Of a DNA stretch of 64,000 nt, positions 21,751 through 30,737 are shown one piece after another. The position numbers were made by a program, and so were the translations under genes. Numbering within the stretch: position 1 is the first letter of the stretch; every line of letters starts with the position of its first letter. This DNA is from Agarivorans albus (GTDB lineage Bacteria > Pseudomonadota > Gammaproteobacteria > Enterobacterales > Celerinatantimonadaceae), in NCBI RefSeq assembly GCF_019670105.1, contig NZ_AP023032.1, positions 499,501 through 563,500 on the forward strand, in the 5' to 3' direction. Under the pieces are notes generated by a model. The model did no database searches. It saw nothing but the letters and a program-made list of their open reading frames with translations, and was not told the origin of the DNA.

Positions 21751-23550
21751 CTAGTAATCGCGAATATTAAAGTGTAGCGCTAATAGCTGCTTAAACTTTT
21801 TCACTACGTGTAAGCCATGGCGTAATAAATCTCGCTGACTGTGATTTAACTTGTCTAGCTTAAGTACGTGATAGTCTTGGCCCTCTTCAGCCGGGAATAG
21901 CTGTTGAATACGCAGTTTAAAAAACAGCAATAGTGCTTCTTTAAGGTTAGCTGCACTGTCCTCGTCTATCACTTTTAATGAGGCGAGCTGTTCTATGCGC
22001 TCTAGGGTATTGGTCGCGCTAATTGCATGTTCTAAGGCTAGGGCGCGTACCCCATGCACAATAGGAAAAATCCCGCCTTTCTTGATATCTAAGCCTGCTT
22101 GTTTGGATTTAATATTGCCAAACATGGTGAGTGGGGTATGAAACTTTAAGGCTGGCTGAGCAAAAAACGCCAAGGTAACGCTGCGATTAGCCATTTGTGC
22201 CATTAGATCTTTGCGTAATCTACGCAGTAGGCTTTTATTACCCGCAATGGCGTGGGCATCTAATACTATGGCGAGGTTCATCATGGCATCGCCGTGGCCG
22301 GTTTCTATCCAATTGGCAATGGTTTTACTCCATTGGCTTTGTTGCTGCACCCAATCTGGGTTGTTCACCATTATGTTGCCGGGGCAAGGCGGGTAACCTA
22401 ACTCGAGTAGGTATTCGCTAAACTGATTTAGTTGCTGTTGTCGCTCTGGCCAATCGTATCCATCTTCGATGACTAAGCCGTTATCTTGGTCGGTTTTAAC
22501 GATTTGCTCGCCACGACCTTCACTGCCCATCACCATCAAACATATGTGGTTGTGATGTTGGTGTGGGATGCTCAGTTCAAACACTCGGCTAATAATTTGC
22601 TCATTCATGGTAGCGAGCAACTTCATAATAAATAAGGTGCGAATGCCGTTATTGCAGAGGTTTTCTACCAGTTTATTGAGGGTGTGTGCCGCTTCGCTGA
22701 GTTCTTCAATACTTGAGGCGCGAGCAATGCGTAAAGCCAATACGTGAGAGTGGGTCGAGAACAAGCTAAGCAGATGCGCCATCTCCAGTATGCCAATGAT
22801 CTTTTGCTGGTCTTTTACCACCACCCGCTCGATGCTGTTGCGCGTCATTAACAGCATGGCGTTAAACAAAAAGTCGCCTTTATTCACACTGATTAAGTTG
22901 AAGTTGGCTAGCTGGCAAACCGGAGTATCGAGAGATTGCTGCACCAGTACCGCAGCATGGAGTAAGTCGGTACCTGTTAGCATGCCAAAGCAGCCGTCGT
23001 GATTGACCAGTAATGACTCCAGCTTTTGCTCGCGCATAATTAGGGTGGCTTGCTGCAGCGAGGTCTCTCCTTCAATGACCACTGCGGGTTGTACGTTGCG
23101 TTCATCAATGGTGGTGAGGATGAATTCTGCCAAGTTCTTATTGCCTTCGCGAGACTCTACCAGTTGGTGACGGGTGGCTAAGTCACGCTGAAAATAGTCA
23201 CCAAAATCGCTGTTTTCACTCACTAAGCGGCGAAAGATTTGGCTAGGCAGGGCGTAACAAAGGGTTTCTTCTAGGGCGATGTAGTCATGTTTTGCATAGC
23301 CGCCAAATTGCGAGCGTACATCAAACCAGTCTTCTAGCGTGTAGTGGGCAAATACCTCATCATTATTGTCGGCGCGCTCTTCAACTTGGCCTTTAATAAT
23401 TATGAACAAACTGGAGGCCTGCGCGCCCGCTGTAACTATTTTTTGCTGGCTTTGAAAGTAGTGAATGTCTAGATTGCTAGACACCAGTTCACGCTGCTTG
23501 GGCTCAAGCTGATCAAAGGGCGGGTGCTGAAAATTAAAGTCGGTACTCAT
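21751..23550 (-). CDS. cNMP-binding / CBS-pair / DUF294 nucleotidyltransferase-like protein
   Basis: The 599-residue cytosolic protein has three visible parts. Residues about 15-130 form a cyclic-nucleotide-binding-like domain, residues about 150-265 form a CBS pair, and residues about 280-590 form the DUF294 region with the GlnD-like motif GSEGRGEQ (342-349) followed by KTDQDNGL (D354, D356). The last resembles the metal site of nucleotidyltransferases, so it may nucleotidylate a target or bind nucleotides; no activity is established. It is divergent from crbS and upstream of the exonuclease gene, suggesting a link to carbon or acetate control. A MITE-like element lies in its upstream region. 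Confidence 0.87.
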   Translation of the reverse strand: MSTDFNFQHPPFDQLEPKQRELVSSNLDIHYFQSQQKIVTAGAQASSLFIIIKGQVEERADNNDEVFAHYTLEDWFDVRSQFGGYAKHDYIALEETLCYALPSQIFRRLVSENSDFGDYFQRDLATRHQLVESREGNKNLAEFILTTIDERNVQPAVVIEGETSLQQATLIMREQKLESLLVNHDGCFGMLTGTDLLHAAVLVQQSLDTPVCQLANFNLISVNKGDFLFNAMLLMTRNSIERVVVKDQQKIIGILEMAHLLSLFSTHSHVLALRIARASSIEELSEAAHTLNKLVENLCNNGIRTLFIMKLLATMNEQIISRVFELSIPHQHHNHICLMVMGSEGRGEQIVKTDQDNGLVIEDGYDWPERQQQLNQFSEYLLELGYPPCPGNIMVNNPDWVQQQSQWSKTIANWIETGHGDAMMNLAIVLDAHAIAGNKSLLRRLRKDLMAQMANRSVTLAFFAQPALKFHTPLTMFGNIKSKQAGLDIKKGGIFPIVHGVRALALEHAISATNTLERIEQLASLKVIDEDSAANLKEALLLFFKLRIQQLFPAEEGQDYHVLKLDKLNHSQRDLLRHGLHVVKKFKQLLALHFNIRDY

Positions 23551-23705
23551 TGCCTCACCTAGTCGTGTTTAACTCAGGTATTTATCCGCATTTAGCATGA
23601 TATTTTTTGCTTAGCGAACCTAGACGACTTTAGTCTAAACGCGGCCTTAAGCGGATTTTGGCAGCTAGAAAATGCAGTTTTGTTAAGTCTAAATTCCCTG
23701 CTTTC

Positions 23706-23986
23706 CTAGGGTCTGTTGATCTTTGGTGTTGAAATTTTGTTCGAGATAAGCGGGCTTTAATCGCGGCGAGCACTTAGAAGCCTAGTGGGCTAAGCAAGAA
23801 GTGCTTAACAAAGAGTAAAGCTCGCTTATCCGAACCCTTTGGGCAGCATTCCTTAGCCATTTATTCAGCGTTAGCGAGTGGTTATTAAGCCCACCTTACT
23901 GCTCACTCACTGCCTTGCCTAAATGGCTAATAAACTGCTGCAAAAACCATCAGCAAAGATCAACAGCAAAGATCAACAGACCCTAG
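23706..23986. mobile_element. 281-bp MITE-like element with 20-bp perfect terminal inverted repeats
   Basis: CTAGGGTCTGTTGATCTTTG at 23706-23725 is repeated as its exact reverse complement at 23967-23986. Just inside the right end, CAAAGATCAACAG is repeated in tandem at 23954-23966. The interior has nested hairpins: the arms around 23739-23760 and 23815-23840 are near complements, and a smaller stem around AGCACTT/AAGTGCTT lies within. No transposase frame fits. The ends read C-TA-GGGTCT and AGACCC-TA-G, consistent with insertion into CTAG and duplication of TA (IS630-like habit) or of CTAG (some IS5 relatives). It sits in the 644-bp gap between the DUF294 gene and crbS; the rest of the gap shows only the leader frame at 24109. 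Confidence 0.82.
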
Positions 23987-24108
23987 TAATAGTTTGATAA
24001 CTCTTTGTATTAATCACAGTTATCGACAATCTTTTTTGCTAGCGTAAGCTAAGTGAACGAGCTGCAGATAAAATCAGCAGTAAATCAATGTTTGTAGGCA
24101 GATAGAAA

Positions 24109-24204
24109 ATGGATGTTGTTCTAGTTGCTGATAGTGAAGGCTGGGTTAAGCCTTGTATTAAATGGCTTAGTGATCACAAGGATAGAAAGAATAGATGCAA
24201 ATAG
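24109..24204 (+). CDS. Possible 31-residue leader peptide overlapping the crbS start
   Basis: An ATG at 24109 opens a 31-codon frame (MDVVLVADSEGW...) that ends at a TAG at 24202-24204, ten bases inside crbS. Such an overlap allows translational coupling. In Pseudomonas a small gene, cbrX, lies directly before the related kinase gene cbrA and is translationally coupled to it; no sequence similarity to CbrX is claimed. The frame has only a weak AGATAG-like ribosome-binding site. It could be chance. Confidence 0.3.
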   Translation: MDVVLVADSEGWVKPCIKWLSDHKDRKNRCK

Positions 24205-27200
24205 TAAGTGAGGGCTGGTTAGTTATCCCGCTGTCGTTGGCGTACTTGGGTTTGCTATTTGTGATCGCCTATTTTACCGATCAAAATGCCAGTGCCCGTT
24301 TGCGCTGGCAACCGGCTTTTTATAGCTTTTCTATTGCTGTTTATTGTACCTCGTGGACCTTTTACGGCACCGTGGGCCAAGCCAGCGAGAACTTCTTATC
24401 TTTTATTCCCATTTACCTTGGTCCGGTATTGCTATTTCTGTTTGGTTGGAAACTACTCGCCAGAGTGGTGTTAATCGCTAAACGCGAACACATCACAACA
24501 ATTGCCGACTTTATCGCAGCACGTTATGGTAAGTCACAAACCTTAGCGGTAGTTATTTCACTTATTTGTATTATTGGTGTATTGCCGTATATCGCATTGC
24601 AATTACGCGCCATTGTGATGGGTTTAGACTTGTTTGGCGGCGATGCAATGCGAGAAGCAGTGGGTAAAGGCAGTAGCTCGCAAATCGCCTTGTTTGTGAG
24701 TATCGCCTTGGCGATATTCACCATGTTATTTGGCACTCGCCATATTGATGCCACAGAGCATCACCGTGGGGTGATTGTAGCGATTGCTTTTGAGTCGCTG
24801 GTTAAGCTGGTGGCCTTTGTTTGTGTGGGTTTGCTAGCGGTATCGATATTGTGGGATTTGCCGCTTAGCGCCCAGCAAGCGGTAAGTGAGTCCTTTAGCT
24901 TTAAATGGCAAGAGATTAGCGTTGCCGATGTGACAGATTTGGTAATTGCCACGCTGTTAGCGATGTCGGCAGTTATTTGTTTACCCCGCCAATTTCATGT
25001 AACCGTGGTAGAAAACAACCAAGTTAATGATTTAAAAACCGCGCGTTGGCTATTTCCTGCCTATTTGGTGTTGCTGGCGATTTTTGTATTACCCATCGCT
25101 TTTGCTGGTGATGTTTTATTGCCAGCGAATACGCCCGCCGATAACTATGTGATTAGTTTACCGCTTGCGGCAGGGCATGATTGGTTAGGAATGGTGGCAT
25201 TTTTAGGTGGAACCTCCGCCGCCAGTGGCATGGTGGTGGTGTCTACCATTGCTTTAGCCATTATGGTTAGCAATGACCTAGTGTTACCACTGCTGCTAAA
25301 ACAAGGCGGTTTGAGCCGTCGCAATTTTGCTCAGTTTAGCGAACTACTGCTTAATGTCCGTCGCACCACCATTTTGGTGATTCTGTTGCTAGCTTGGGGC
25401 ACCTTCTTGATGTTGGGCGAGCTAACAAACCTTGCTGACATTGGCTTCTTATCTTTTGCTGCAATCGCTCAATTAGCGATTCCACTTATCTTTGGTTTGT
25501 ACTGGCGAGAAGGCAATCGAACCGGCGTTTATGCTGGTTTGTTAGTGGGCATGAGCTTATGGCTACTCAATTTACTCAATATGACTGATGGCCTAAATCC
25601 CTTGATTTTTAACCAATGGATTGCCGATTGGCTGACTGCGCCGCAACTTGCTGGTCACGCGCTGATCTCCAATGAAAACTGGGGCATTGTGCTTAGTTTG
25701 TTGGGTAACCTGTTGGCGTATTTATTGGTGTCTAAGTTATCTAGCCCAGCCGTTTCCGAATGGTTGCAAGCCAGTAACTTTGTTGGCCAAACTGGTAAAA
25801 GTGATGATGCCGGTGCTCTATACCAATCAAAGGTGAGCGTAGAAGAGCTTCACATGCTGGCATCACGCTTTTTGGGGACTCAACGCATAAGCGAGGCATT
25901 TGGTAAATATGCGAGCTCTCGAGATCTGGACCTTAGCCCTAATCAACAAGCACCGGTGGAGCTGATTGCCGAAACGGAACGCATGTTAGGTGGGGTATTT
26001 GGTTCATCGTCGGCGCGTTTAGTGCTGGGTTCTGCCCTGCAAGGTAAGCAAGTTCAACTTGAAGAGTTTGCCTCGATAGCCGAAGAAGCTTCGGAGCTAC
26101 TGCAGTTTAATAAACACTTGCTACAAGGTGCCATTGAGCACATTGATCAAGGCATTGCCATTGTAGATAAAGAGTTAAAATTGGTGTCGTGGAATCGCCG
26201 TTATACCGAGCTATTTGATTTTCCTAATGGCATGATTGCAGTAGGTCGGCCGATTGAAGATCTGATTCGCCATAATGCTATTAATGGTTTGTGTGGTCCG
26301 GGTGATATTGAAGAACATGTAGAACGTAGGGTAGAGCATTTGCGTCGTGGCAATAGCCACACATCTTCACGGATCAGGCGTGATGGTCGAGTGATCCAAG
26401 TGCAAGGTAACCCGATGCCAAATGGTGGCTATGTAATGACCTTTAGTGACATTACCACCTTTCGCCAAGCAGAAGACATGCTCAAGCAAGCTAACGAAAT
26501 TCTTGAGGCGCGAGTTGCGCAGCGTACTCAACAGTTATCGTCTATTAACCAACAATTAGTGCATGCTACCCATGCCGCCGAGCAAGCTAACCAATCTAAA
26601 ACGCGCTTTTTGGCGGCGGTAAGCCACGACCTTATGCAGCCGTTAAATGCCGCTAAGCTGTTTGCTGGCTCTTTGCTTGAGGCCGACTTAGAAAACGACA
26701 CCAAGTTTTTGGCTGCGAGCATCGATAAGTCGCTGTATTCTGCCGAGGAAATCATTAGTGATTTGCTAGATATTTCGCGTCTTGAGTCAGGCCGCGTGGT
26801 GGTGAGTAAAGAGCAGTTTGAAATAGGCCATTTGCTTGACCATATTCATGCCGAATTTATCCCCTTAGCCCAGCAACAAGCGGTGGAGCTCAAGTTACAT
26901 ACCAGCAAGCTTACCGTAAGCAGCGACAGTAAATTATTACGCCGCATTTTGCAGAACTTTCTCACCAATGCATTACGTTACAACCCTAAAGGTAAGGTTT
27001 TATTGGGGGCGCGTCGCAAAGGCAATAGCTTACGTTTGGAAGTATGGGACAACGGCCCAGGTATTGAGCAAAGCAAACAGCAGCAAATTTTTGAAGAGTT
27101 TCAACAGTTACAAAAGTCTGGCCGGGCTCGAGAAGAAGGCTTAGGTTTAGGTTTAGCAATTGCCCAAGGCTTTGCCGAGTTATTGGAAATTCCCATTGGT

Positions 27201-27716
27201 GTTGAGTCGGTACTTGGCAAAGGCTCGGTATTTTACGTTACTGTTCCTGTGGTTGAAGCAGCCAATATCTATAAAGCTAAGCAATTAGAAGGTGCTCCCA
27301 TTAGCACTACTCAAGGCGCAAAAGTACTCTGTATTGATAATGAGCCCGACATTCTTGCCGGCATGGAAAGTCTGCTAAGCCGTTGGGGCTACGAAGTGAT
27401 TTGCTGTGAAGATGCTGATACCGCCGCAGAGGTAATAGAGGGCGGTTGGGTGCCAGAATTAATTCTTAGTGATTATCATCTCGACTATGACAAAACCGGA
27501 TTAGAAGCGCTGCAGCGCTTAATTCATCAAGGCCAACTCTCTTGTCATGGCATAGTTATTAGCGCCGATAGGCAAACTGATCTAATCGATCGCGTACGCG
27601 CTCAAGGCTTTGCCTACTTAAGTAAACCACTACGCCCATTACGTTTGAAAAAACTCTGCCAGCAGCTGCTTAATAGCCAAAAAGGCGCTAATGATTGGCT
27701 AAAGCCGAGCTCTTAA
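24195..27716 (+). CDS. crbS: SLC5-type hybrid sensor histidine kinase CrbS (acetate switch)
   Basis: The 1173-residue protein carries, in order: a sodium:solute symporter-like domain with about 13 membrane segments (residues 5-520), a STAC linker (about 550-640), a PAS domain (about 645-760), a HisKA domain with SHDLMQPLNAAKLF and phospho-acceptor H811, a HATPase with NFLTNALRYNP, DNGPGIE and GLGLGLAI, and a C-terminal receiver with D1093 in SDYHLD. This is the CrbS/CbrA layout. CrbS with CrbR activates acs in Vibrio and Pseudomonas; both acs and a CrbR homolog are nearby. AAGGA lies 12 bases before the ATG, which is long, and a small frame overlaps the start. No terminator separates it from the next gene, 93 bp on. 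Confidence 0.92.
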   Translation: MQIVSEGWLVIPLSLAYLGLLFVIAYFTDQNASARLRWQPAFYSFSIAVYCTSWTFYGTVGQASENFLSFIPIYLGPVLLFLFGWKLLARVVLIAKREHITTIADFIAARYGKSQTLAVVISLICIIGVLPYIALQLRAIVMGLDLFGGDAMREAVGKGSSSQIALFVSIALAIFTMLFGTRHIDATEHHRGVIVAIAFESLVKLVAFVCVGLLAVSILWDLPLSAQQAVSESFSFKWQEISVADVTDLVIATLLAMSAVICLPRQFHVTVVENNQVNDLKTARWLFPAYLVLLAIFVLPIAFAGDVLLPANTPADNYVISLPLAAGHDWLGMVAFLGGTSAASGMVVVSTIALAIMVSNDLVLPLLLKQGGLSRRNFAQFSELLLNVRRTTILVILLLAWGTFLMLGELTNLADIGFLSFAAIAQLAIPLIFGLYWREGNRTGVYAGLLVGMSLWLLNLLNMTDGLNPLIFNQWIADWLTAPQLAGHALISNENWGIVLSLLGNLLAYLLVSKLSSPAVSEWLQASNFVGQTGKSDDAGALYQSKVSVEELHMLASRFLGTQRISEAFGKYASSRDLDLSPNQQAPVELIAETERMLGGVFGSSSARLVLGSALQGKQVQLEEFASIAEEASELLQFNKHLLQGAIEHIDQGIAIVDKELKLVSWNRRYTELFDFPNGMIAVGRPIEDLIRHNAINGLCGPGDIEEHVERRVEHLRRGNSHTSSRIRRDGRVIQVQGNPMPNGGYVMTFSDITTFRQAEDMLKQANEILEARVAQRTQQLSSINQQLVHATHAAEQANQSKTRFLAAVSHDLMQPLNAAKLFAGSLLEADLENDTKFLAASIDKSLYSAEEIISDLLDISRLESGRVVVSKEQFEIGHLLDHIHAEFIPLAQQQAVELKLHTSKLTVSSDSKLLRRILQNFLTNALRYNPKGKVLLGARRKGNSLRLEVWDNGPGIEQSKQQQIFEEFQQLQKSGRAREEGLGLGLAIAQGFAELLEIPIGVESVLGKGSVFYVTVPVVEAANIYKAKQLEGAPISTTQGAKVLCIDNEPDILAGMESLLSRWGYEVICCEDADTAAEVIEGGWVPELILSDYHLDYDKTGLEALQRLIHQGQLSCHGIVISADRQTDLIDRVRAQGFAYLSKPLRPLRLKKLCQQLLNSQKGANDWLKPSS

Positions 27717-27809
27717 GTGGACAGAATGGTTGATGTTTTAACGCGTACTTGAACAACAATAGTCTTACGATGTCGCTAATTTTTCATTTCTATAAACGGG
27801 AGGGGTAGC

Positions 27810-28421
27810 TTGATTAGGTGGGGAGTAAATAGTTTTCTTAGCACTAATATGCGGCTGATGGCCAATTGGAATGGCAGTGCTTGGCAGGTGTTCGATTGTT
27901 TTATAGTGGCTAAACCTAAAACCTTACCCGCTCCAACTTGTAAGCTATCTCCAACCGGCAGTTGGCAAATTTTTGAAACTGCTGAAAGAACCTTGTATTT
28001 GTCTTTGGTTACTCGAGAGTTGCAAGTTAGTTGGGCAGAACTAATCCCATTGATGGCTGAATATAGTAAAGGTTTTGTGCAAACGATGCTCCGCCAAGAA
28101 GTCCAGAAGCTAGTATTAGAGGCAGAGAGTCACCCTCAAGAAGTAAAACGAGCGCGCCAATTGGGAATTAATGTTCATCAACTCTGGTGGTTGCAAGCGC
28201 TGGATCAGTATCCAGAAGAGCTGAGTTATCACAGTAAAACAAGTTCACATATAGCTGAATGGCGATGTGAGCAGCTCGAACCAGCATTTGCTAAGCCACT
28301 AGTGAGCCGTGATCTACGTGCTCTTACTAAGCTCGGGTGGTTGTCGTTTGATGGAGAGCGTTATCATCGTACCAGCAAATTTATCCCTCCGGCTGAGGAG
28401 CATGTGACTAAGATGTTTTGA
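27810..28421 (+). CDS. Uncharacterised protein upstream of the sheath gene
   Basis: I do not recognise this 203-residue protein. A TTG start at 27810 is supported by GGAGG six bases upstream; the next candidate is an ATG at 27849. It is soluble, Trp-rich (WNGSAW, GSWQIF, HQLWWLQ), with a helical middle (WAELIPLMAEYSKGF to KLVLEAESHP). The C-terminal stretch LVSRDLRALTKLGWLSFDG followed by RYHRTSKF has the look of a winged-helix recognition helix and wing, which is only a guess. It lies 93 bp after crbS and 96 bp before the sheath gene on the same strand, with no terminator in either gap, so cotranscription is likely. It could be a regulator, chaperone or partner of the sheath protein. Confidence 0.75.
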   Translation: MIRWGVNSFLSTNMRLMANWNGSAWQVFDCFIVAKPKTLPAPTCKLSPTGSWQIFETAERTLYLSLVTRELQVSWAELIPLMAEYSKGFVQTMLRQEVQKLVLEAESHPQEVKRARQLGINVHQLWWLQALDQYPEELSYHSKTSSHIAEWRCEQLEPAFAKPLVSRDLRALTKLGWLSFDGERYHRTSKFIPPAEEHVTKMF

Positions 28422-28517
28422 GTATGCGTAGTTTTCTTGGTTTGTTATATCTACCTCGACGCAGCAAAGAAGACCAAAGCCTCAGAAATATTAGTGGCTC
28501 TATAAGAGGAAAACGGC

Positions 28518-30008
28518 ATGAGAAACATAAAAACTCCCGGTGTGTATATTGTTGAAAAAAATGCGTTTCCAAATTCAGTCGTGGAGGTAGCAACTGCAGT
28601 ACCGGCATTTATCGGCTATACCCAAACCGCCAGTAAAAATAACAAGTCAGTACTAAACAAATCTATTCGGATAAGCTCTATGGCTGAGTTTCAAAGTGTT
28701 TTTGGCTTTGGAGCTAGTTTGCAGTTTGATTTTGCACAAGCCGCTGACGCCGCAAGCGCAGATATGTCTTTAGATGACAAGCACTATACGGTTGCAGCAA
28801 GCGGCAATAAGTATCGTTTGTACCAAAGTATGCAGATGTTTTTCTTAAATGGCGGCGGTCCTTGCTACATCGTATCGGTTGGTGATTACACGACAGACTT
28901 GGCTAAAGACGCAATGTTAGCTGGCATTACTACCTTAGTTGAAGAGCAAGAGCCTACCCTGGTGGTGATTCCTGATGCAGTCAGTCTTGCAGCTGCCGAT
29001 TGTTACGCGGTGCAGCAGCAAATGCTGATGCATTGTGGCAGTAAAATGCGCAGCCGTATTGCTCTGTTAGATGTTCATAACGGTTTTCAAGACGAAGAAG
29101 ATAGTGTGGCAGCGTTTAGAGCTGGAATATCAAATAAAGAGATTGGTGATTTTGGCGCAGTGTATTTCCCATGGCTAAACAGCACTTTGTTTAGTCATTC
29201 AGATGTTCACTTCGGCTTTTTAAGTGACGAAGGTAAAGCGGTATTGCAAGCGGCTATAAACGCAGAGCTTGGTGCGCCTGATGCCTCGTCAGTTATAGGT
29301 AAAATGTTGGCAGGACTTACTGCTACCGAAACGGGTGATGACGATCCTACTCCCGAAGTTATTGATAAAGGCTTACGTGCATCTTGTATTACTTACCCAG
29401 CACTTGTTAAAGAAATTTGCAGTCAACTCAATTTGCTGCCTCCATCAGGCGCGATGGCCGGTTTGTATACCATGAGCGACAATATGCAAGGTGTATGGAA
29501 AGCGCCTGCGAATATTGAAGTAGTTGGCGTCACTTCACCTGCTTTGATTGTTTCCGTCGAAGAGCAAGAAAGCTTAAACGTAGATGGCAATGGTAAATCG
29601 ATAAATGCGATCCGCTCATTTATAGGTCAAGGAACCTTAGTTTGGGGGGCTCGAACTCTGGATGGAAATAGCTTGGATTATCGTTACGTTAATGTGCGCC
29701 GCACCATGATTATGCTCGAACAATCGCTAAAACTAGCGGCTAAAGCATATGTATTTGAGCCAAACGATGCACAAACTTGGGTCACGATTAAAAGCATGAT
29801 TTCTAACTTCCTTACAGGAATCTGGAAACAAGGAGGCTTAGCTGGAACAGCGCCAGCTGAAGCTTTTAGCGTGCATGTTGGTTTGGGTGAAACCATGACC
29901 AGTGAAGATATTCTTGAAGGGATTTTAAAGATTACGGTACTTGTTGCGATCACTCGCCCAGCCGAATTTATTGAAATTACTTTCCAGCAGCAAATGCAAA
30001 AATCTTAA
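28518..30008 (+). CDS. Orphan contractile tail-sheath protein (injection-system / phage-tail type)
   Basis: The 496-residue protein begins KTPGVYIVEKNAFPNSVVEV and then VPAFIGYT, the N-terminal pattern of sheath proteins in extracellular contractile injection systems (Afp, PVC, MAC) and many phage tails. Further sheath features are MFFLNGGGPCYIVSVGDY, MQGVWKAPANIEVVGV, INAIRSFIGQGTLVWGARTL, YRYVNVRRTMIMLEQS, VFEPNDAQTWVTI and a C-terminal RPAEFIEITF. The length is normal for the family. AGAGGAA precedes the ATG and a terminator follows, so it is an intact unit. No tube, baseplate, spike, tail-completion or AAA+ gene is within 20 kb on either side. Its role without those partners is unknown; it lies between crbS and crbR. 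Confidence 0.88.
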   Translation: MRNIKTPGVYIVEKNAFPNSVVEVATAVPAFIGYTQTASKNNKSVLNKSIRISSMAEFQSVFGFGASLQFDFAQAADAASADMSLDDKHYTVAASGNKYRLYQSMQMFFLNGGGPCYIVSVGDYTTDLAKDAMLAGITTLVEEQEPTLVVIPDAVSLAAADCYAVQQQMLMHCGSKMRSRIALLDVHNGFQDEEDSVAAFRAGISNKEIGDFGAVYFPWLNSTLFSHSDVHFGFLSDEGKAVLQAAINAELGAPDASSVIGKMLAGLTATETGDDDPTPEVIDKGLRASCITYPALVKEICSQLNLLPPSGAMAGLYTMSDNMQGVWKAPANIEVVGVTSPALIVSVEEQESLNVDGNGKSINAIRSFIGQGTLVWGARTLDGNSLDYRYVNVRRTMIMLEQSLKLAAKAYVFEPNDAQTWVTIKSMISNFLTGIWKQGGLAGTAPAEAFSVHVGLGETMTSEDILEGILKITVLVAITRPAEFIEITFQQQMQKS

Positions 30009-30032
30009 GCTTAATTTATTGCATAAAACACT

Positions 30033-30060
30033 AAGCCCGACCAGCGGGCTTTCTAATTTT
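30033..30060. terminator. Terminator after the sheath gene
   Basis: A 7-bp G/C-rich stem (30033-30039 with 30045-30051) with a 5-base loop is followed by a T-rich stretch. It separates the sheath gene from the convergent crbR. Confidence 0.75.
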
Positions 30061-30071
30061 TCAGAAGCTAT

Positions 30072-30737
30072 TTAAATCTCGTTATCTTCTGGGCTTGGCT
30101 CTAGCTCTAATTGTTGCAAAGCGATTACTGCTTGGGTGCGGTTTTTCACGTTAAGTTTGCGGAAAATCGCAGTAACGTGGGCCTTAATCGTGGCCTCCGA
30201 TACATTTAGCTCGTAGGCAATTTGCTTGTTTAGCAGGCCTTCGTTAAGCATTACCAATACTTTGTATTGCTGTGGGGTAAGGCTGGCTAAGCGTTCGGCT
30301 AGAGGGTCTTCCTCAGCTTGAGCGCTAAAACTTATGCCTTCTGGGAACCAGTCGTCGCCTTCAATAATGTGTTGAATGGCGGCAACCAATTGTTGTAGTG
30401 GGGTCGATTTAGGAATAAAACCAGTTGCGCCAAGCTGCTTGGCTTTTTGCACTACGCTTACTTCCTCGCTGGCCGAGATCACCACAATCGGTAGCTCTGG
30501 ATATTGACCGTGCAAATGGGTAAATGCCGAGAAGCCATTAGCGCCGGGCATCTTCAAATCTAATAACAGTAGGTCGGGTTCGCGCTCTAGTTCGAGCAGT
30601 TTAAGTAGGTCGTTAACATTCTCAGCTTCTAGTAACTGAGCATCGGGAACGGCAGTTTGTACTGCCTGCTGAAGAGCACTACGAAACAAGGGGTGGTCGT
30701 CAGCGATAATGATCTTGTAGGTATCTTCCATAACCAT
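30072..30737 (-). CDS. crbR: LuxR-type response regulator CrbR
   Basis: The 221-residue protein has a receiver domain (DD at 13-14, phospho-acceptor D60 in LLLLDLKMPG, Lys in FIPKSTP) and a C-terminal LuxR/GerE helix-turn-helix (about 150-215, with LTPQQYKVLVMLNEG and NKQIAYELNVSEATIKAHV). This matches CrbR, the partner of CrbS that activates acs for acetate use in Vibrio cholerae and Pseudomonas. The homologous kinase gene lies 2.4 kb away on the opposite strand, separated by the sheath unit. ATG codons at 30737 and 30731 are both possible starts. Assignment rests on domain type plus context. Confidence 0.85.
   Translation of the reverse strand: MVMEDTYKIIIADDHPLFRSALQQAVQTAVPDAQLLEAENVNDLLKLLELEREPDLLLLDLKMPGANGFSAFTHLHGQYPELPIVVISASEEVSVVQKAKQLGATGFIPKSTPLQQLVAAIQHIIEGDDWFPEGISFSAQAEEDPLAERLASLTPQQYKVLVMLNEGLLNKQIAYELNVSEATIKAHVTAIFRKLNVKNRTQAVIALQQLELEPSPEDNEI

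Follow-up and report, generated by a model that had tools for sequence, protein, structure and literature searches.

We found a contractile sheath gene of the eCIS kind in Agarivorans albus that has been retained under selection without a tube or terminator gene in its genome and without other cluster genes nearby. This orphan sheath is real, and it is not unique. The reading we favor, at a probability of roughly 0.4, is that the solitary sheath is kept under selection and most likely forms polysheath-like tubules with a selected structural or scaffold role. The window referred to throughout is the whole 64 kb stretch of DNA that was analyzed, and its genome (G000) is a single contig of 4,792,255 bases (4.79 Mb).

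The sheath gene and its absent partners

The gene lies on the forward strand at 28518 to 30008 and, by its open reading frame and its family and structure matches, encodes an eCIS-type contractile sheath of 496 residues. A ribosome-binding site read from the sequence, AGAGGA (28505 to 28510, forward strand), stands 7 bases 5' of the ATG. A sequence-only reading of this DNA had described an intact 496-residue sheath with its own ribosome-binding site, and both the reading frame and its coordinates were confirmed. The protein scores 38.8 bits against the sheath C-terminal domain PF17482, above the cut-off of 26.9, and 24.8 to 26.9 bits against the subtilisin-like sheath domain PF04984, under the cut-off of 31.4. 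PHROG tail-sheath families also match (best E of 9.3e-50), and the best solved relative is 9r9h chain T (E = 1.8e-163, aligned over residues 4 to 496), followed by AlgoCIS 7adz and the Anabaena protein 7b5h. The score above the PF17482 cut-off and the full-length match to a solved sheath together place the protein in the contractile tail sheath class. It is thus homologous, over its full length (9r9h) or most of it, to the sheaths of eCIS with a one-protein sheath, but unlike in those systems only the sheath is present here, tube and terminator being absent from the genome and other cluster genes from the vicinity.

No sigma-70-like site was found between 27500 and 30300 (against 4.9, sd 2.1, in shuffles), which leaves the sheath with no evident promoter of its own. 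The terminator at 30033 to 30051 had been assigned to the sheath as its own. Because its AGCCC..GGGCT stem at the 3' end of crbR reads on both strands and also occurs in three sheath-less genomes (G002, G005, and G006), we consider it part of the site, a two-way terminator that serves crbR from one direction and the sheath (or crbS) from the other.

In tblastn searches with 28 proteins of three eCIS clusters, which cover spike, PAAR, LysM, and baseplate J and include no AAA+ ATPase, there was no match anywhere in the 64 kb of the window, nor in the 40 kb around a second copy of the sheath gene, in genome G004; with the sheath added to these queries, only the sheath matched. This agrees with the earlier claim that no tube, baseplate, spike, or terminator gene is visible for more than 20 kb around. 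Genome-wide profile searches covered the sheath, tube, terminator, and gp25. The one PF04984 match in the genome of the window is the sheath itself, with no second PF04984 sheath. The tube profile PF06841 (Phage_T4_gp19) has no match in the whole genomes of G000 and G004 and two in the control G008, and the terminator profile Pvc16_N (PF14065) has none in the same two genomes and was found in the controls G008 and G138. The sole PF04965 (gp25) match of G000, at 175198, lies among genes that we take to be T6SS-like, and the gp25 match of G004 resembles it by score. We also considered that a tail or injection cluster lacking a sheath might stand elsewhere in the genome, a concern raised in the sequence-only reading. 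None was found in the tube, terminator, and gp25 searches, the only gp25 match being the one among the T6SS-like genes.

A second concern of that reading, a decaying prophage around relatives of the locus, was likewise not borne out. The crbS and crbR genes flank the site in all seven genomes of the genus and no close phage or viral-contig relative was found, and a prophage origin was rejected on these grounds. Among the 470 phage records matching the sheath, none does so over 80% of the query, and the best 10 of the 470 cover at most 50% of it at 26–36% identity; 50 viral contigs encode a relative, with best-segment identity of at most 48%. The same records bear on whether the protein is a decoy, as had also been suggested, or a poison that would upset tail assembly in phages or in competing eCIS. 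A lone co-assembling subunit could block assembly, an argument with nothing observed behind it, but the short, low-identity matches among the ten best phage records speak against this, as do PADLOC, which gives no match, and the fact that eCIS are assembled in the attacker and not in the target. We consider a decoy very improbable.

The crbS-crbR gap and the 203-residue reading frame

The sheath lies in the convergent gap (window positions 27717 to 30071) between two genes that, like the earlier reading, we take to be crbS and crbR. The left border is a crbS-like histidine kinase gene at 24195 to 27716 on the forward strand (PAS_7, HisKA, HATPase_c, and Response_reg), and the right border, known from an open reading frame call and a domain search, is a gene for a crbR-like LuxR-type response regulator at 30072 to 30737 on the reverse strand. 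Across species of the genus, this gap (also seen in L041, L042, and L043) is a variable cargo site. It holds a 203-residue open reading frame (ORF) and the sheath in G000, the ORF alone in G001 and G003, the sheath alone in G004, a 64-codon ORF in G005, about 3 kb of other genes in G006, and only a terminator in G002. As judged from the edges of DNA matches, a segment at 28413 to 30053 (forward strand) is present in G000 and absent from G001 and G003, which carry another short terminator instead. The sheath copy of G004 occupies the same spot with 74% identity to that of G000. It had been proposed that the sheath is expressed jointly with acetate use; because the cargo of the gap changes from species to species, such a link is unsupported.

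Divergence along this region differs from gene to gene. In G001, crbS is closest to that of G004 (dS of 0.44), and the CBS gene is closest to those of G000 and G003 (dS of 0.20–0.21). The mosaic divergence of window positions 21751 to 30737 from G001, G003, and G004 points to recombination between species.

The 203-residue ORF stands upstream of the sheath at 27810 to 28421 on the forward strand, with a ribosome-binding site, GGGAGGGG, read from the sequence at 27798 to 27805 on the same strand. Said earlier to belong to no recognizable family, it indeed has no match at E ≤ 1 in Pfam, PHROGs, PADLOC, or NCBIfam, and a search of solved structures returned four matches, the best with an E of only 0.59. 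Its dN/dS of 0.11–0.15 between three species indicates that it evolves as a gene. A structure model made from three near-identical rows has a mean pLDDT of 49, with only residues ~110–195 moderately confident, and in this weak model a helix and two strands at 166–187, in the C-terminal end, could possibly resemble a winged helix.

The sequence-only reading had made this ORF the regulator or partner of the sheath and asked whether the two travel together. A two-gene unit co-expressed with crbS would fit the shared strand and close spacing in G000, where a separate promoter was not found, but the distribution contradicts it. The ORF is present in three of the seven genus genomes (G000, G001, and G003) and the sheath in two (G000 and G004), so that they occur together in one of the four genomes having either and are parted in the other three. 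In 60 relatives, which did not include the lone-sheath genomes of other genera described below, the ORF turned up outside the genus just once, as a stop-containing match of 36 residues in G041, and the ORFs beside those other lone sheaths are unlike it by eye. The ORF is therefore a neighbor and not a partner of the sheath, and the pairing is largely refuted and hardly credible as an explanation.

Relatives of the sheath and the constraint on it

Relatives of the sheath were studied in the best 80 of 454 named records, which come from several phyla by their titles. A tube gene directly follows the sheath in 79 of the 80; the remaining one, contig L111, has a Pvc16 match upstream and stops 147 bases past the sheath match. 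No lone sheath was demonstrated among these best 80 of 454. The nearest cluster sheath found, at 63% identity, is that of G138, where matches run in the order terminator, sheath, two tubes, LysM, spike, PAAR, gp25, and baseplate J. In a quickly built tree of 61 selected rows, the G000 and G004 sheaths are sisters (support 100), and the G138 sheath is sister to this orphan pair (SH-aLRT 95). An eCIS cluster is also present in G008, which belongs to the window's family, and its sheath is at 59%.

Two relatives were of note in their own right. Glaciecola sp. XM2, one of the 80, carries a four-gene module, sheath-tube-spike-PAAR, in housekeeping surroundings (L110:10004-13868). The 21 kb examined there contain no match to a baseplate or terminator gene, and the sheath of the module is changed at 27 of 178 conserved columns. 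A cluster sheath in a Tannerellaceae MAG (L116) has one in-frame stop and was left out of the counts.

Both orphan copies, in G000 and G004, are open over all 496 codons, with a dN of 0.16, a dS of 0.89, and a dN/dS of 0.18 between them (0.12–0.22 in 100 codon bootstraps). Because this dS falls within that of neighboring genes in the same genome pair (crbR 0.36, a LysE-type gene 0.48, the CBS gene 1.30, and crbS 1.54), it is plausible that the two sheaths were inherited at the site from a common ancestor, though the region recombines between species. The neighbors have a dN/dS of 0.00–0.06, below the 0.18 of the sheath. Cluster sheath pairs with a GC3 below 0.67 (n = 29) range from 0.03 to 0.09 but are more alike, at 82–96%, and GC-richer pairs (n = 71) range from 0.08 to 0.49, with dS poorly estimated. 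We took as conserved the 190 columns kept in at least 95% of the 80 relatives, leaving 306 others. The two orphan copies differ at 17 of the 190 and at 114 of the 306, an approximately four-fold avoidance, yet cluster pairs of 70–77% identity (n = 264, not independent) differ at a median of only 1.2% and a maximum of 5.1% of conserved columns. Constraint on the orphan sheath is thus clearly present and clearly looser than in clusters. The loosening may in part be a trait of the clade, as departures from the consensus in the 190 columns number nine in G138, which is in a cluster, 13 in G000, and 19 in G004.

This weaker constraint relative to cluster sheaths makes slow decay nearly as good an explanation as a lone function. 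The sheath might be an eCIS fragment captured by recombination, or the sole remnant of a cluster since lost, now functionless and with constraint weakening, and we regard this as a serious possibility. The raised change at conserved columns and the raised dN/dS fit such a history, as do the patchy presence in two of the seven genus genomes at a variable cargo site and the recombination of the region between species; absence of the sheath from five of the seven and the failure to find a promoter for it also count against a retained function. If the copies were captured separately, constraint could partly predate capture, yet they are sisters with support 100. Decay is harder to reconcile with two copies open over 496 codons, a bootstrap range of 0.12–0.22 that is far under 1, differences that shun conserved columns (17/190 versus 114/306), and the lack of any match to the 28 cluster proteins in the 64 kb window, and the 9/190 departures of G138 suggest that the loosening is perhaps partly clade-wide.

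Terminal segments of the AlgoCIS sheath reportedly make the 'handshake' between subunits. We defined the terminal arms here as residues 1–35 and 476–496, borders of our own setting. Of 45 conserved columns in the arms, none is changed in G000 and two in G004, and of the remaining 145, 13 and 17 are changed; by this sequence criterion, the conserved N- and C-terminal linking arms are kept in the orphan sheath. In the reading of a retained function, an eCIS-kind sheath gene came to stand by itself between the convergent crbS and crbR genes of the genus, and its protein would polymerize unaided into contracted, polysheath-like cytoplasmic tubules, the contracted form being the one expected of a tubule without a tube. 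We consider self-polymerization most likely because the arms are almost unchanged. As reported in PMC6357053, a phage sheath made alone self-assembles, and PMC9230969 describes phage sheaths that polymerize without partners; in AlgoCIS, according to PMC8894135, the sheath subunits are linked by a conserved 'handshake' and grip the tube through a helix in domain I. Retention of the arms does not prove assembly: the sheath described in PMC6357053 can lose 25 residues at its N terminus and 100 at its C terminus and still self-assemble. Selection of the tubule as a structural or scaffold element would be the final and weakest step, in which we have low confidence. The sequence-only proposal of a domesticated sheath used alone thus finds backing in the intact gene, the dN/dS of 0.18, the little-changed arms, and the absent tube and terminator, although its 'decoy' variant has no evidence.

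Lone sheaths in other genomes

We searched for the sheath protein in three overlapping draws of genomes, from the order (394 genomes, E ≤ 1e-40), the class (369), and the phylum (398, both at E ≤ 1e-60). Matches were found in 20, 12, and 10 genomes, respectively, or 36 distinct genomes; two with weaker matches, G010 (which has its own tube genes) and G032, were excluded from these counts. In 26 of the 36, a tube gene lies beside a sheath; eleven of these were judged from a 1.5 kb flank, and in G757 the tube adjoins the second of two neighboring sheaths. Two more are cut by contig ends (G598, with a Pvc16 match upstream, and G686), and one, G171, has a tube-sheath pair only. The pair in G171 (L151:9684-11183) has a short sheath of 372 residues, with no other cluster-query match in 20 kb. 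The remaining seven, from five genera, have lone sheaths: G000, G004, G166, G291, G786, G1077, and G1079. The flanks examined were 17.9 and 3.3 kb in G291, 6.8 and 3.9 kb in G786, and about 9 kb per side in G1077 and G1079; G166 is a weak case, as its 3.9 and 1.8 kb make up the whole contig of an 80% complete assembly. Pvc16_N is absent from all seven genomes and from G171. Genome-wide tube searches gave no match in G000, G004, G166, G1077, and G1079 and one unlinked orphan tube each in G291 (L170:10006-11013) and G786 (L180:9258-9767).

In the tree, G166 falls within a nine-row set of Shewanella, Vibrio, and other cluster sheaths (support 100), and G786 lies next to the cluster sheath of G868 (90, not starred, long branch). 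G291 and the pair G1077/G1079 are on long branches of unsure placement, and G171 is outside the tree. The tree suggests at least three separate detachments, in the genus of the window, in G166, and in G786, the last two being less sure. The lone sheath shared by G1077 and G1079, two species of one genus, comes by eye after a peptide-transporter-like operon and has a dN/dS of 0.19, compared with 0.00–0.04 for four neighbors, from only 29 differing bases. As the query was a sheath and orphan tubes exist too, this census gives no measure of whether solitary sheaths are commoner than solitary copies of other parts.

The separate orphan sheaths and tubes of G291 and G786, along with reduced modules such as the tube-sheath pair of G171 and the sheath-tube-spike-PAAR module of L110, would suit a sheath that acts in trans as a spare part, either for an incoming eCIS or tail or for one that varies between strains, just as orphan hcp/vgrG islands may supply a T6SS. 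We find this unlikely here, as G000 and G004 lack tube and terminator genes, the only gp25 of G000 sits in a T6SS and that of G004 is alike by score, and the T6SS has its own two-part sheath. Our preferred reading, a retained sheath forming tubules, extends less securely to these other genomes. Solitary eCIS sheaths might be a recurring kind of domesticated gene, each encoding a protein that assembles by itself into cytoplasmic tubules and serves the cell, in several proteobacterial lineages, a generalization that is possible but doubtful.

A sheath protein is also used outside a contractile tail in phage N4, but it differs from the one described here in being part of the virion. Among the matches listed for the journal literature, there was no published description of lone eCIS sheaths. 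A close parallel is the polysheath of phage sheaths expressed alone, likewise a partnerless sheath protein for which self-assembly is expected, although the product described in PMC6357053 is recombinant and ours is a natural lone gene known from sequence. Orphan T6SS islands of hcp, vgrG, and PAAR, as presented in PMC13098142, are likewise parts of a contractile machine standing alone, but those parts belong to a T6SS, whereas no eCIS was found here. By their described filters, the eCIS survey PMC8213781 accepts only loci with at least ten core genes and the survey PMC12210884 requires baseplate, tube, and sheath-initiator genes; because such filters demand many core genes, lone sheaths would be invisible to both. 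If the lone sheath is functional, it would be a part of a contractile machine turned into a bacterial tubule, and its recurrence in a few other bacterial lineages hints at a stand-alone role. Even if it is decaying, it shows how eCIS clusters come apart.
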